DNA from: Nitrospira sp.
Lineage (GTDB): Bacteria; Nitrospirota; Nitrospiria; Nitrospirales; Nitrospiraceae
Assembly (NCBI GenBank): GCA_024330945.1
Contig: JANDJJ010000011.1
Coordinates: 1 to 38,801, forward strand
Length of the DNA stretch: 38,801 nucleotides
Direction: 5' to 3'
The notes under the pieces were generated by a model. The model was given only the letters and a program-made list of their open reading frames with translations. It ran no database searches and was not told the origin of the DNA. The translations under genes and the position numbers were made by a program. This document shows, piece by piece, positions 4,739 through 10,809 of this stretch (positions within the stretch are counted from its first letter, which is position 1; the number at the start of each line of letters is the position of its first letter).

Positions 4739-5182
4739 TCAGTCCTCTTCCGGGTTGATGATGTGCAACCCCGCCGTCTTTGCGGCGACCAGCAACTGGG
4801 CATCGGCGCTCACCACGGTCAATCGGAGCGGCTTCAGTTCCAACGCCAGCGCCAGATGCATCACCTGCGGCGAGCGCAAAAACGGATATTCCAACGCCAA
4901 CTCCTTGGTCGAGAGATACGTCGTGACGGTCGGGACGATGAAGTGAAACAACCCCTGTTTCGACTCAATCTCAAACTTGTAGAGCACCGAGTAGCAGTCG
5001 TCCCTGGTGATTTTTCCTTCCTGAGCGCGCGTGGTCATGGCGGTGTAGAAATCCGTCACAGACCAAGGCGGAAGAACGGCGACCTTTCCCCGCTTGACCA
5101 GCAGTTTATTGACGATCCTGGTCCCCCGTTCCATGCTGTATCGTTTCACCAACGCTGTCGAGTCGAAGTAATAGTACGGCAT
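4739..5182 (-). CDS. PIN-domain protein (VapC-like putative toxin)
   Basis: 147 aa; N-terminal YYFDSTALVKRY, QVMHLALALE, VSADAQLL; directly downstream of a small ORF. Confidence 0.8.
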   Translation of the reverse strand: MPYYYFDSTALVKRYSMERGTRIVNKLLVKRGKVAVLPPWSVTDFYTAMTTRAQEGKITRDDCYSVLYKFEIESKQGLFHFIVPTVTTYLSTKELALEYPFLRSPQVMHLALALELKPLRLTVVSADAQLLVAAKTAGLHIINPEED

Positions 5183-5186
5183 CCGC

Positions 5187-5477
5187 TTACACCCTCCCCT
5201 TTAGGATGATTTCCGCCAACGGCCCCGGGAGTTTGGAGAGACGGTCTTGCAACTCGTCCAGCGGCAACTCCTCGTAACCTTCCTTCCGTAAGGTCACGGC
5301 AAGATTGCCCTGGTTGAACGACTCGGTGTCTTTTCGTAACCGCTCGTTCAACCGTTGTTTGGCCAAACGACTTGAAATTTTCGGGCCCGTTTTGGTCAAC
5401 CCTCTGCCCCGACTCCGCGGAGCCTTGCTTATCGGCGTTTTTCCGATCGTGCTCACCGTGTCACACCTCCTCGTCAT
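5187..5477 (-). CDS. Small basic protein, putative partner/antitoxin of the PIN protein
   Basis: 96 aa; Arg/Lys-rich N-terminus; stop only a few nt before the PIN start; no recognisable VapB DNA-binding motif. Confidence 0.6.
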   Translation of the reverse strand: MTRRCDTVSTIGKTPISKAPRSRGRGLTKTGPKISSRLAKQRLNERLRKDTESFNQGNLAVTLRKEGYEELPLDELQDRLSKLPGPLAEIILKGRV

Positions 5478-5491
5478 TGGTCGATAAATCG

Positions 5492-6643
5492 TTATGGCAT
5501 CATCTCCTTGAACGACTCATCTCTCGGGCAACCAGCCGACCTTTTCTCCGGCGTCGGCAATTCGGCTTCCCCGAAAATAGACGATGCAATCAGGACCGCC
5601 ACTTCCGACGACAGGTGTTGCTGCATGTCCCGCAAAGCCCTGGTCGTCGCCTCCCGCTCCGTGAGATGTCCCTCTTTTCCGCCTCGTGAAACAACGCCCA
5701 GAACACGGCCGCTCCCTGTGTCCACCACTTCGACGTCGCCGCACCAGCGAACGTACTTGAAATAAGGGTCGTGGACCTCAACGGGCAAGAGCCGGGTGAC
5801 GCCTCGCACCGTCAACGCCGCATCCATGCCTTCACCGCCCTCCGCCGTCACGGTGATCCCCTCTCGGATCAATCCTTCCATCAAGGCTTGTTGGGCGACT
5901 TCGGCATGGTCGCCGACGATGCGCACCGCCACCACCAGGTCAGTGGAAAGAAATCGCGCCAGCTCCTTGGATACGTCGTTCACATCGTATGGAGAGGCCT
6001 CGCCTCGCCCGCTCGGACGAACGACGCGCAGGTCGGCGTTATACACCTCCCGTAACGCCAAATTTCTGGCCGCCTTCCGCAAGTTGCGAACCGTGATCAC
6101 CTTGTCAGAGGTACGCCGCGATTCCCCGATATCCAACTCGATCATCCTGTCCAGCGCCGACAACCGATCCAACAGCGACGCCTCCGCTTGAGCGCGGTTC
6201 AGCACGGCCAACGCATAGTACACGTCACGAGCCTGGTCATACCACGTCTCCATGATTCTGACATTCTCGAGCACCTTGGTGGTTGAAATGTTCGTCACGG
6301 TCTCCAGCGCGAGTCTCCGCTCCTCAGTCGTCGCACCTCGTCTTTCAACCAGAAAATAGGATTCCCAATCCTTCGCGCGCGCATCCACTTCCGCCTTGAA
6401 AATCCGCGCCACGGCCGCATATGCCTGATCGGCCGCGCCTTGCCGATTGTCGGCCTGTCCCACACCGGTCAGATACTCAACCGGAGGATACTTGCGATTG
6501 ACGTCGTCGATCCAGGTCGGCCCGGCCTGTCCACCGATCCATGCGCAACCAGGCCAGGACGGCCCGATCAGCCCAATGCAGCTCGCCGTGAGAACAGATC
6601 GTAGAACAGATCGACGCAGCTTGATTCGGCAGGGGAGCATCAT
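5492..6643 (-). CDS. LPP20-like envelope lipoprotein, larger paralogue
   Basis: WIDDVNRKYPPVEYLTGVGQADNRQGAADQAYAAVARIF matches the LPP20 pattern; start MMLPCRIKLRR overlaps the upstream stop (ATGA), so the longer ORF start at 6772 is unlikely. Confidence 0.7.
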   Translation of the reverse strand: MMLPCRIKLRRSVLRSVLTASCIGLIGPSWPGCAWIGGQAGPTWIDDVNRKYPPVEYLTGVGQADNRQGAADQAYAAVARIFKAEVDARAKDWESYFLVERRGATTEERRLALETVTNISTTKVLENVRIMETWYDQARDVYYALAVLNRAQAEASLLDRLSALDRMIELDIGESRRTSDKVITVRNLRKAARNLALREVYNADLRVVRPSGRGEASPYDVNDVSKELARFLSTDLVVAVRIVGDHAEVAQQALMEGLIREGITVTAEGGEGMDAALTVRGVTRLLPVEVHDPYFKYVRWCGDVEVVDTGSGRVLGVVSRGGKEGHLTEREATTRALRDMQQHLSSEVAVLIASSIFGEAELPTPEKRSAGCPRDESFKEMMP

Positions 6644-8148
6644 TGCACCACGCGCCGAATGAGAAACATCGTTTGACCTTGGGAAAGATGAAAAGATGAT
6701 TCCTTCACCCCGACGGCGACGACTCCGCTCGAAGGATGAACGGTCGCCCGATATCGACCCGCAGGCACCCACACCCGCGCCACATGGATTTCATCCGGCA
6801 AGGTCCGCCAACTCCGTTTATCAGCTTCTTCGGAGGCCACGGCCAGCCCCTTGGCCAACAGGCTCACCAGCAATCCCACCCAAGGCGCGGCATCTCTCCC
6901 CACAGCCTGTTGGGAACCGATGACCGCCCCTTCCGCCATAGAAAACTTCGCGGCGGCCCGAGCCACGGCCTTCACAGTCATGACCGGCAGACGCTCCGCG
7001 AGAGTCTTCTCCGCCAATGCCGTCAGATCGTGAACCCGTTCCGACCGAATGGCATAGGAGACGCCTTGCTCATCGGTCAACGTTACGGTCTCAAACGGAA
7101 TCCTGGTCTTTTGTCGAACCATGCGGGGAAGCGCGACTCTCACCACCCGCCCGCTGAGTCCGTAGAGAACGCCGTCCATCACCCGATTCCGGCTTCCAAA
7201 CGAAGGGGAGAATCCGCGATTCAACAACACCAACTGCAAGGCGTCCAGACCGACCGGAAGATCCAGATACAGATCCTCTTTCCTCGGGGCGCGCCCATTA
7301 TAGCTGATCATGACAACTTGGGCGAGCTGTTGGCGGGCCGACGCGGACAACCATTCAACGTCGGGATATTTGCTCCGATACCGATCCACCTCGTCCGCAA
7401 GTCCGAGAGCTTCGGCGGATGACAACAAATCGGCGCGCAACGACGGAGGACAGGCCACCTGGGACCAGCCGCGCATCGCTTCATAGGCCTCGCAGGCATT
7501 GCGATAGGCGATGAACGCGTTGTTCAGATCACCAGCCGCCTCATACAACATGCCGCTCAGATAGCGCGCAAAGCCGTCGTCTCCATAGCCGCTCTTCCCC
7601 TTGCCTTTGCCCTCGAGCCTGTCGCTCAGCACGTTGAGACGATGATCGATGCGCCTGGCTTCCACTAACGCTCCCGCAACGTCGTTCTGCGCGGCGTAGT
7701 TGAGGGCCTTCACAATGTTGATCATGACGTGCTCATAGGGATCTCCTTCGTACGGCAACGCATTGTCGTTCGTCAGAAACGCCAGCGTTTCGGATCGAAC
7801 GGTCCTGGTGTAGAGCTGCTCCACGATCTCTTCGGCCTGCTCAAGCGCTTCATTGCTTTGCGCGTAGTCTCCCGCCACATGCAGCATCATGCCTCGATCC
7901 ATCAAGTACAAGAGACGGCTCTTCGATCCATACTCCGATTCAGCCCGTTCGACGATGGAAGCGGCCTGTACGGGGTCACCCGCAAGCAGACTTTGCTCAA
8001 TGAGGGCGTAGCGGTTGGTGGACGTACAGCCGGCGAGAAAACCGATGATGGCTATGACAAGAGGGAGGAAACCGTTTGCGAGGGGACCGCTTGATCGGCG
8101 TCGTGTGAAACCGCGGCGGCTGAAGCCCAGGAGGAGAAGGGATTTCAA
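6640..8148 (-). CDS. COG3014-like TPR-containing lipoprotein
   Basis: 502 aa; lipobox LAGC; TPR-like repeats (LEQAEEIVEQL, FIAYRNACEAYEAM); start uncertain (track start is TTG). Confidence 0.7.
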   Translation of the reverse strand: MKSLLLLGFSRRGFTRRRSSGPLANGFLPLVIAIIGFLAGCTSTNRYALIEQSLLAGDPVQAASIVERAESEYGSKSRLLYLMDRGMMLHVAGDYAQSNEALEQAEEIVEQLYTRTVRSETLAFLTNDNALPYEGDPYEHVMINIVKALNYAAQNDVAGALVEARRIDHRLNVLSDRLEGKGKGKSGYGDDGFARYLSGMLYEAAGDLNNAFIAYRNACEAYEAMRGWSQVACPPSLRADLLSSAEALGLADEVDRYRSKYPDVEWLSASARQQLAQVVMISYNGRAPRKEDLYLDLPVGLDALQLVLLNRGFSPSFGSRNRVMDGVLYGLSGRVVRVALPRMVRQKTRIPFETVTLTDEQGVSYAIRSERVHDLTALAEKTLAERLPVMTVKAVARAAAKFSMAEGAVIGSQQAVGRDAAPWVGLLVSLLAKGLAVASEEADKRSWRTLPDEIHVARVWVPAGRYRATVHPSSGVVAVGVKESSFHLSQGQTMFLIRRVVQ

Positions 8149-8160
8149 CTCTCGGACCTG

Positions 8161-8772
8161 TCAAAACACCGTCCGTTTCCTTTCGACCACTTTCTTGATC
8201 TTCTTCTGTCCGTACCAGACCTTCGCGTTGCTTTCCAAATCAATCATCTGAAGGTCCACCTGATAGAACACCGCCTTGGTGCCATCGGCCTCGTCCACGA
8301 TCGTGGCGATGGTGCCCTTCAACATGAAGTCGGCTCCGCTCTCTTTTCCCGGAGCCTTTTGGGTATCTTCACGGGCATAGACCGCCTGTTCTTTCCGCTC
8401 AGCCCTGACTTCCTCCCGTTCTTGTTTGCCCGCTACGAATGTGACTTTTTGAGAGTTGGTGAGTTCCCGTTCGAGGTCCGTGATGAAGGTCTGGACGTTG
8501 ATGTGCTCATGGCTGTTGTTCACCACTGTGCCGACCACCACGACCGGCTGACGCTGTTTTGCCTTGGAGAAGTTTCCAAGCCATGGGTACTCCAAGGCCT
8601 CTTTCACCATGGCTTCGGCCACCATCCGCGAATCGGTATCGTTCCAACGGCCGCTGAGATCGGTCACGACGCCGGCATCCACGCGCGTCACTTTGACCTC
8701 GTGCCCGCAGCCACCCACCGCGAGAAGCACCCATACGAACAACAGAACGCGCCGCAAGGTGGTTCGGATCAC
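8161..8772 (-). CDS. lpoB: LpoB-like penicillin-binding-protein activator lipoprotein
   Basis: VVVVGTVVNNSHEHINVQTFITDLERELTNSQKVTFV; VGGC lipobox; GTG start with AAAGGAG RBS preferred, track start at 8829. Confidence 0.75.
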   Translation of the reverse strand: MIRTTLRRVLLFVWVLLAVGGCGHEVKVTRVDAGVVTDLSGRWNDTDSRMVAEAMVKEALEYPWLGNFSKAKQRQPVVVVGTVVNNSHEHINVQTFITDLERELTNSQKVTFVAGKQEREEVRAERKEQAVYAREDTQKAPGKESGADFMLKGTIATIVDEADGTKAVFYQVDLQMIDLESNAKVWYGQKKIKKVVERKRTVF

Positions 8773-8841
8773 GCCGATGACTCCTTTAGCCATTAACCAT
8801 CGCGCCTTACAAACACCCCTTACAAACACCGTGGGGGGATC

Positions 8842-9399
8842 TTACCGAATCCCCCGTTTCTCTTCCTCTTTTTCAAGACGGTCAAACAGGCGGTCCGCAT
8901 TTTTGCGGACGAAGTCGCGGACCTCCGCGTTCAGCTCCTTGGCCCGTTCGAGATTGTTTTTCATGTCTTCCAGACTGAGCTTGGCGAGCACGTAGTAGGT
9001 GTTGGTTTTTTCGTCTTTGTAGCGATCGACGGGGCGCACGCCGCTCAACGTCACCGTGGCAACCGTCTTGACAGCCCGCTCGACGTTCTGTTCCTCGGTG
9101 TTCCGCGTGAAATCTCCCGCCGTCGTCGAGGCGGCATAGTCTCGCATCAGATAAGCCGTATAAGTTTGAACTGTCTTGGCGATTTCCGCCCGTGCTCGAT
9201 TTTCGGCGGTATCCCAGGCCAGGGGTTCGTTTTTCACGCCCACCACCGACCCTACCCCATAAAACGCTTTTCGGTCTTTTTCGTTGAATGCCCCGGACCC
9301 TCTTTCCACCCACTTGGGAGGACCGCCACAAGCCGTGAGCCCCACCAGAAGAAGGGCTACAAGAGCAGTATGGATCAGCCTCCTCTGCCGCCGCATCAT
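8842..9399 (-). CDS. LPP20 family lipoprotein
   Basis: 185 aa; lipobox LTAC-GG; PKWVERGSGAF...FYGVGSVVG...AENRARAEIAKTVQTY; RBS AAGGAGGA. Confidence 0.8.
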   Translation of the reverse strand: MMRRQRRLIHTALVALLLVGLTACGGPPKWVERGSGAFNEKDRKAFYGVGSVVGVKNEPLAWDTAENRARAEIAKTVQTYTAYLMRDYAASTTAGDFTRNTEEQNVERAVKTVATVTLSGVRPVDRYKDEKTNTYYVLAKLSLEDMKNNLERAKELNAEVRDFVRKNADRLFDRLEKEEEKRGIR

Positions 9400-9618: not shown

Positions 9619-9789
9619 ATGGCGGAGATTCACATCGACGGCGGCATCATCACCATCGTGAATTTGGATGTTCAGGACACAAAGGCCGCGGCCATCTTGG
9701 CAGCCTATCCGATAGAACGCCGGGCAGAAATCACCCGCCGCGCCATCAAGATCGGATTGGGTTATCTGAAGGGCGGAGAACAGGAATAG
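9619..9789 (+). CDS. Small hypothetical protein (56 aa)
   Basis: MAEIHIDGGIITIVNLDVQDTKAAAILAAYPIERRAEITRRAIKIGLGYLKGGEQE; plausible globular composition; between two minus-strand transcription units. Confidence 0.5.
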   Translation: MAEIHIDGGIITIVNLDVQDTKAAAILAAYPIERRAEITRRAIKIGLGYLKGGEQE

Positions 9790-9903: not shown

Positions 9904-10809
9904 CTAAGGAGATGTCGCTTCTCCATCCGACAGGGGCGCCGACGGAGACGGAATCAAGGTCCCTTCGATCAACACGGTATCACCGTCGCCATCGATTCTG
10001 AGACTGATGGGATGCTGAGCGCCATTGGACACACGCTCAACCCGTTCGACAAGGTAGGTTCCCAACTCAGAAGCCATCAGCCATCCGTTTCCATCCAAGT
10101 CCGCTTCGCCGGAGAGACCGGCCAACAACAGTCGCACAAAGAGACTCTTGCCGTCGGGACGTAACGATGTCTCTCCTTTGCCCGCTGCGCTAATCACCTG
10201 GACGGCCCGTCTCTCCCTCTCATCCTCCGGCGCCACCCGACCCTCCAGCGACAACCGCGGAGGCGCCGTCACTTCCCACCCGAAAACCGGCGCGTCGAAC
10301 AAGAGCACCGTATGTGTCGACGCGGTGCGCCGCGTAAATTCCTTGAGCTGCTCGACCGTCATGGCTTTACTGACGTGAGCGATCTGCGCATCCAGAGGAA
10401 CGAGATAGCTCCGTTCCTCTCCCTCCGCATCTCGCGCGGCGCCGGCATGACCGATGTAGAAGATAACCAGTCTGTCCATCCGACCGACTTTTCTCGGCAG
10501 AATATCGTTGAAAACCTGTTGCAGCCGGCGAGAGGTTGCATCTTTTTCATAAATCTCCACGACCTCGTCGAAACCCAACCGCCGAAACGCCTGCGCGACT
10601 TGTTTCGCGTCATCGATCGCTCCGGGGACGGGTTGAGCCACCAGGTAGTTTTCAATGCCGATGATGACGGCCCAGGACTTGTAGTAGAGCCCTTCGGGCT
10701 TCCCCGCCTGGGCGTACGCATCCGAGGACACGGCGCACCACCATGCCACGATTACCTGCCCCAACAACACACCGATTATTCCCAGCCCGTGTAGAAACCG
10801 TCTCATCAT
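9904..10809 (-). CDS. Secreted caspase-like (peptidase C14 fold) protein, probable pseudoenzyme
   Basis: Signal peptide ending AYAQA; YKSWAVIIGIENYL, LVIFYIGHAG, SYLVPLDAQ; EF-hand-like loop DLDGNGWLMASE; DAP where DAC is expected. Confidence 0.8.
   Translation of the reverse strand: MMRRFLHGLGIIGVLLGQVIVAWWCAVSSDAYAQAGKPEGLYYKSWAVIIGIENYLVAQPVPGAIDDAKQVAQAFRRLGFDEVVEIYEKDATSRRLQQVFNDILPRKVGRMDRLVIFYIGHAGAARDAEGEERSYLVPLDAQIAHVSKAMTVEQLKEFTRRTASTHTVLLFDAPVFGWEVTAPPRLSLEGRVAPEDERERRAVQVISAAGKGETSLRPDGKSLFVRLLLAGLSGEADLDGNGWLMASELGTYLVERVERVSNGAQHPISLRIDGDGDTVLIEGTLIPSPSAPLSDGEATSP

Follow-up and report, generated by a model that had tools for sequence, protein, structure and literature searches.

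A Nitrospiraceae pseudocaspase conserved across the family after loss of the catalytic cysteine

A gene on the minus strand of a 38,801-nucleotide stretch of Nitrospira sp. DNA (the window, meaning the whole stretch analysed) encodes a caspase homologue of 301 residues with proline in place of the catalytic cysteine. The protein carries inactivating substitutions at its catalytic site, belongs to a single clade of Cys-less relatives, evolves under constraint, has a predicted caspase fold and differs from most of its orthologues in the absence of a TPR extension; its export, ligand binding and partners we infer. On balance, it is probably a periplasmic pseudocaspase whose peptidase function was lost once and which acts as a non-catalytic binding module within an envelope assembly.

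The gene and its product

9904..10809, minus strand: pseudocaspase gene, 301 amino acids, stop codon at 9904-9906; Pfam PF00656 match at E = 5.1e-13; orthologues of 60-93% identity genus-wide
10711..10809, minus strand: putative signal peptide, residues 1-33; AYA-Q cleavage judged by eye, structural model confidence low before residue 40

A Pfam profile search matches residues 45-267 of the protein to Peptidase_C14 with 49.7 bits, against a cut-off of 21.4 bits for PF00656, which places it by sequence profile in peptidase family C14 and bears out its first-pass annotation as a caspase-fold (C14) protein. The signal peptide described in that annotation is also recognizable by eye, with an RR pair, a hydrophobic run and the AYA-Q sequence, and A33 and Q34 recur in at least 97% of 61 genus orthologues. 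The pseudocaspase would therefore be exported through a cleaved signal peptide and reside in the periplasm.

Two AlphaFold models were made, and the second and better one, built from a 57-row alignment, has a pTM of 0.80 and a pLDDT of 84.3 that rises above 90 over most of the core. A Foldseek search of the PDB returned the MALT1 paracaspase first (E = 2e-13), followed by metacaspases and caspases, so that the predicted model has the tertiary fold of the caspase clan. Structure prediction had been suggested as a way of locating the catalytic dyad; in the model, His121 follows the strand at 113-119 and P174 the strand at 166-172, the positions along the strands expected for the dyad of a caspase fold. 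A sequence search for solved relatives gave only calmodulin-like chance matches, all to an EF-hand-like loop described below.

The former catalytic site

10441..10452, minus strand: GHAG, residues 120-123; catalytic His kept, oxyanion Gly after it replaced by Ala
10288..10296, minus strand: D172-A173-P174, catalytic Cys replaced by Pro; codons GAC GCG CCG
10273..10284, minus strand: F176-G-W-E179, clade-specific Trp and acidic residue beside the dead site, from the orthologue alignment
10609..10611, minus strand: D67, putative S1-pocket acidic residue; D in 19/19 dyad-intact homologues versus 28/38 pseudo-clade rows

The orthologue set comprises 140 distinct sequences from about 20 genera of the family to which the window's genome belongs. 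Residue 174 is Pro in 62 of them, Ala in 45, Asn in 21, Gly in 10, Ser in 2 and Cys in none, and P174 falls, with no adjoining gap, in the column that holds Cys in 19/19 dyad-intact homologues. The reading of DAP instead of DAC, and of the codons beneath it, therefore stands. The catalytic His that defines C14 together with this Cys is retained: G120 and H121 are each found in 140/140 orthologues, in agreement with the GHA read earlier at the His position. Position 122 is Ala in 126/140 orthologues versus GHG in 20/20 dyad-intact rows, so the oxyanion Gly is lost. The putative S1 acidic residues, whose role is an assignment drawn from the metacaspase literature, are relaxed in the pseudo clade (D67 in 28/38 rows, D172 in 30/38).

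Cys25 of the window's protein sits in the signal peptide, leaving the mature protein without any Cys. Nearly all Cys residues of the 61 genus orthologues likewise lie in the signal peptide, with two exceptions at sequence positions 269 and 439; mature orthologues are thus essentially Cys-free, and no other Cys is able to substitute. Another Cys in the active site and orthologues with an intact Cys had been named in advance as findings that would count against a dead site. Both were looked for and neither was found, and two candidate explanations were rejected accordingly: a substitute Cys elsewhere in the protein, and a sequencing error or one-off mutation, the latter on the strength of 0/140 Cys among orthologues. 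Judged from the sequences, it is close to certain that the protein does not cut by the caspase mechanism.

Beside the lost Cys, W178 is present in 140/140 orthologues versus 0/19 dyad-intact homologues, and position 179 is E or D in 140/140, an acidic residue there being specific to the clade. Because these two clade-specific residues are invariant, the alignment indicates that the dead site is not simply decayed: it is remodelled and fixed. This pattern also raises the alternative that the old active site does other chemistry, with H121, W178 and E/D179 binding a small ligand or metal or forming a non-cysteine hydrolase. All three positions are held in every orthologue although position 174 varies freely, and conservation of W178, E189 and G190 is confined to the pseudo clade, as such a role might require. 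However, the range of P, A, N, G and S at position 174 means that no nucleophile has been kept, the oxyanion Gly is gone, and G120 and H121, just as conserved in the dyad-intact outgroup, may have a structural role, all of which makes this alternative unlikely. Nonetheless, the invariant H121 could be a sign of some remaining chemistry, and to that extent counts against a pure binding module.

Distribution, age and constraint

In a quick, unrooted tree of 62 domains, one branch (SH-aLRT 99) separates all 38 Cys-less proteins from the dyad-intact homologues. Both the Cys and GHG are retained in homologues at other loci. The simplest reading, though not a proof because the tree is quick and unrooted, is that the Cys was lost once, before the family Nitrospiraceae diversified. 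Nearly every genome of the genus, that of Nitrospira moscoviensis (L068) among them, has an orthologue, and so do the other genera sampled from the family. At E-values of 1e-80 or better, the gene is present in 163 of 175 sampled genomes of the family; five of the 12 absences coincide with contig ends adjoining the locus, and in one genome (G028) no pseudocaspase was found in the 1.8 kb upstream of its LPP20 gene. Copy number also varies: two loci carry a tandem duplicate (L065, and contig C69 of G034), and one genome (G105) has a second copy at another locus (L228) with D-A-G at the site.

Compared pairwise with close relatives, the gene has a dN/dS of 0.12-0.24, much like the neighbouring lipoprotein genes, which indicates that selection keeps the pseudocaspase. 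Loss of the nucleophile, together with loss of the TPR part in the window's lineage, might suggest a decaying, functionless relic of a protease gene. This explanation is barely credible given that constraint, the many invariant residues, and retention in most of the family with nearly all copies free of stops or frameshifts. The earlier characterization as a non-peptidase is in turn well supported, by the universal absence of the Cys and of any substitute, the lost oxyanion Gly, the relaxed S1 residues, one apparently ancient loss and purifying selection.

C-terminal features and the TPR extension

10066..10101, minus strand: EF-hand-like loop DLDGNGWLMASE, residues 237-248, between predicted helices 223-235 and 246-260
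9961..10017, minus strand: QHPxxxRIDGDGDxVLIEG, residues 265-283, conserved C-terminal strands; Q265 in 140/140 and P267 in 138/140 orthologues

The EF-hand-like loop reported near the C-terminus is real and conserved, with D237, G242 and E248 in 140/140 orthologues and N241 in 139/140, but it is not peculiar to this protein, as dyad-intact homologues also conserve D237, G242 and E248. By sequence, the loop goes back to the bacterial C14 parent stock. Positions 1, 3, 5, 6 and 12 fit the EF-hand pattern; position 9 is Met, a residue that the standard pattern excludes, and is hydrophobic in nearly all genus orthologues. The loop could in principle act as a calcium-responsive switch, in which calcium alters the conformation of the protein and hence its binding. 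The near-invariance of positions 1, 5, 6 and 12 and the helix-loop-helix arrangement in the predicted model are compatible with such a switch, which is nevertheless quite improbable: the loop is common to dyad-intact homologues and so is not tied to the pseudo state, its ninth position is hydrophobic, and a calmodulin-like partner hand was not found. For the same reason of shared ancestry, the loop gives no evidence for a new calcium role, and the earlier proposal of a calcium-responsive binder is not supported as a special trait.

The QHPxxxRIDGDGDxVLIEG block is the final one common to short and long orthologues. Most orthologues have about 460 residues and continue into C-terminal TPR repeats, whereas the 301-residue form of the window ends soon after the caspase domain; the TPR part is absent in about one third of the orthologues examined. 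The long or short state changes at least six times on the tree, with two changes forced by well-supported branches. Since the long form is found in the other sampled genera, the ancestral form was likely long and TPR loss the likely direction of change. A search of the window downstream of the pseudocaspase stop revealed no TPR remnant.

Genomic neighbourhood

9619..9789, plus strand: conserved small ORF of 56 amino acids, located between the pseudocaspase and LPP20 genes; free of stops across 135 loci (88 distinct sequences)
8842..9399, minus strand: LPP20-family lipoprotein, syntenic neighbour; PF02169, E = 3.4e-7
8161..8829, minus strand: LpoB-like lipoprotein, syntenic neighbour; PF13036, E = 1.6e-41
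6640..8148, minus strand: TPR-like lipoprotein, syntenic neighbour; weak TPR matches only
5492..6772, minus strand: second LPP20-family lipoprotein, syntenic neighbour; PF02169, E = 2.8e-9; true start probably further in

Most loci have the order acs (divergent), pseudocaspase, LPP20, LpoB, TPR-like lipoprotein and LPP20, the TPR-like lipoprotein being one that we take to be of the COG3014 type. The acs, ribE and MFS genes belong to the same synteny block, so adjacency argues only weakly for a common function. The 56-residue ORF is conserved family-wide with a dN/dS of 0.08-0.17 and has no Pfam or NCBIfam family above cut-off; because it occupies the gap in the opposite orientation, a shared transcript of the pseudocaspase and LPP20 genes is doubtful. 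In one clade (L053, L059), the pseudocaspase is not adjacent to the lipoprotein genes. Given the unrelated genes, the opposite-strand ORF and this separation, a functional link with the lipoproteins is a lead only. Downstream of the lipoprotein genes, at 4739-5477 on the minus strand, lies a conserved gene pair with family-wide synteny that resembles a PIN-type toxin and antitoxin by eye; neither gene has a Pfam match above cut-off.

Other caspase-fold genes

Genome searches identified three C14-like genes in the window's genome (G000; 95% complete, 205 contigs), none of which combines His with Cys, and no dyad-intact C14 protein was detected there. One of the other two (L002, contig C198) encodes a probable lipoprotein of 684 residues, a second conserved pseudocaspase in which R-S replaces H-C; this type has R plus S in 15/15 sampled genus genomes. 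The other (L003, contig C193) is a decayed caspase-fold gene with three stops, whose intact relatives have Q-M at the dyad. This Q-M lipoprotein type adjoins the window-type pseudocaspase in two loci (L059:7385-9361 and L053:7358-9268). Other members of the genus do have dyad-intact C14 proteins, L292 and L293 being examples.

The pseudocaspase might instead inhibit an active caspase-like peptidase or serve as its decoy, much as cFLIP does for caspase-8. Some members of the family and genus do encode dyad-intact C14 proteins at other loci. However, the window's genome maintains its pseudocaspase at normal constraint where no intact dyad was detected among its three C14-like genes, and a decoy role is very improbable.

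Taken more broadly, most exported caspase-like proteins of Nitrospira may have become pseudoenzymes, of at least three conserved types (H-P/A, R-S, Q-M and the like), and searches of the window's genome detected no copy with an intact dyad. These would form a non-proteolytic sensing or scaffolding system of the envelope, with the former active site (H121, W178, E/D179) serving as a new ligand site, a tentative proposal that we regard as possible though doubtful. The rough pattern of dyad loss was already known, as a 2012 survey reported dyad conservation of only 57% in Nitrospirae (PMC3501461). That survey was the only literature on Nitrospira caspases found, and the clade-level picture appears not to have been described in the literature searched.

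Proposed role and relation to known systems

Under the binding-module explanation that we favour, peptidase function would have been lost once, ahead of Nitrospiraceae diversification, while the caspase fold was kept without its nucleophile. The former active site would then have been remodelled, with Pro, Ala, Asn, Gly or Ser taking the place of Cys, Ala that of the oxyanion Gly, and W178-E/D179 becoming fixed. The old substrate cleft may now hold a protein or peptide without cutting it, as a component of an envelope assembly. In the putative ancestral form of 460 residues, the C-terminal TPR repeats would provide a second binding surface, since lost in the 301-residue copy, and the LPP20, LpoB and TPR-like lipoproteins encoded next to it are no more than candidate partners. 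The earlier suggestion of a periplasmic scaffold is plausible in light of the signal peptide, the ancestral TPR repeats and the adjacent envelope lipoprotein genes. A possible analogue of this neighbourhood, likened by gene content, is the envelope lipoprotein operon cj0089-cj0090-cj0091 of Campylobacter and HP0018-HP1457 of Helicobacter, which includes an LpoB homologue and for which the parts of the source consulted describe no caspase-fold gene (PMC11394524).

Comparison with bacterial pseudo-orthocaspases of the YS, YN, FS and HA types (Klemencic et al. 2019, PMC6426788) shows a shared p20 fold, a substituted dyad and clade-wise conservation, and some of these proteins (FS type) carry TPR repeats, as the long Nitrospira form does. 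The described examples are mostly alphaproteobacterial or cyanobacterial and have often lost the His too, whereas the Nitrospira clade keeps it, has Pro or Ala at the Cys site and is probably exported; the text of PMC6426788 does not name Nitrospira. With a C14 domain whose dyad is substituted (H-P) throughout one clade, the Nitrospira proteins are a new clade of pseudo-orthocaspases, albeit one in which a p10-like part seems to be present in the model, where further strands and helices (202-281) come after the p20 part and the alignment extends over the MALT1 caspase domain; orthocaspases by definition have no p10.

Other relatives are more distant or differ in activity. SyOC of Synechocystis PCC 6803 is a catalytically dead caspase homologue whose deletion raised oxidative-stress tolerance; any relatedness shown to the Nitrospira pseudocaspase is at the level of the fold, and it represents a single-gene cyanobacterial case (PMC7889975). 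Dyad-intact C14 proteins of Nitrospiraceae and relatives (L129-L133, L210-L225) share 25-32% identity, the same domain, the EF-like loop and the QxP block, but retain the His, the following Gly and the Cys and lie at other loci with other neighbours. MALT1 (PDB 8v4x, 3v4o), the best structural match with a TM-score of up to 0.74 on its caspase domain, differs in being an active cytosolic human protease of about 16% identity.

Significance

Bacterial pseudocaspases have so far come mainly from cyanobacteria and alphaproteobacteria, and functional data are few. Labelling these Nitrospira proteins as caspase-family proteases or as markers of programmed cell death is probably wrong. In the main nitrite-oxidising bacteria, a pseudocaspase that is family-wide, strongly constrained and probably exported, and whose dead site combines an invariant His with a new Trp-acidic pair, offers a well-defined case for the use of the caspase fold without cutting.
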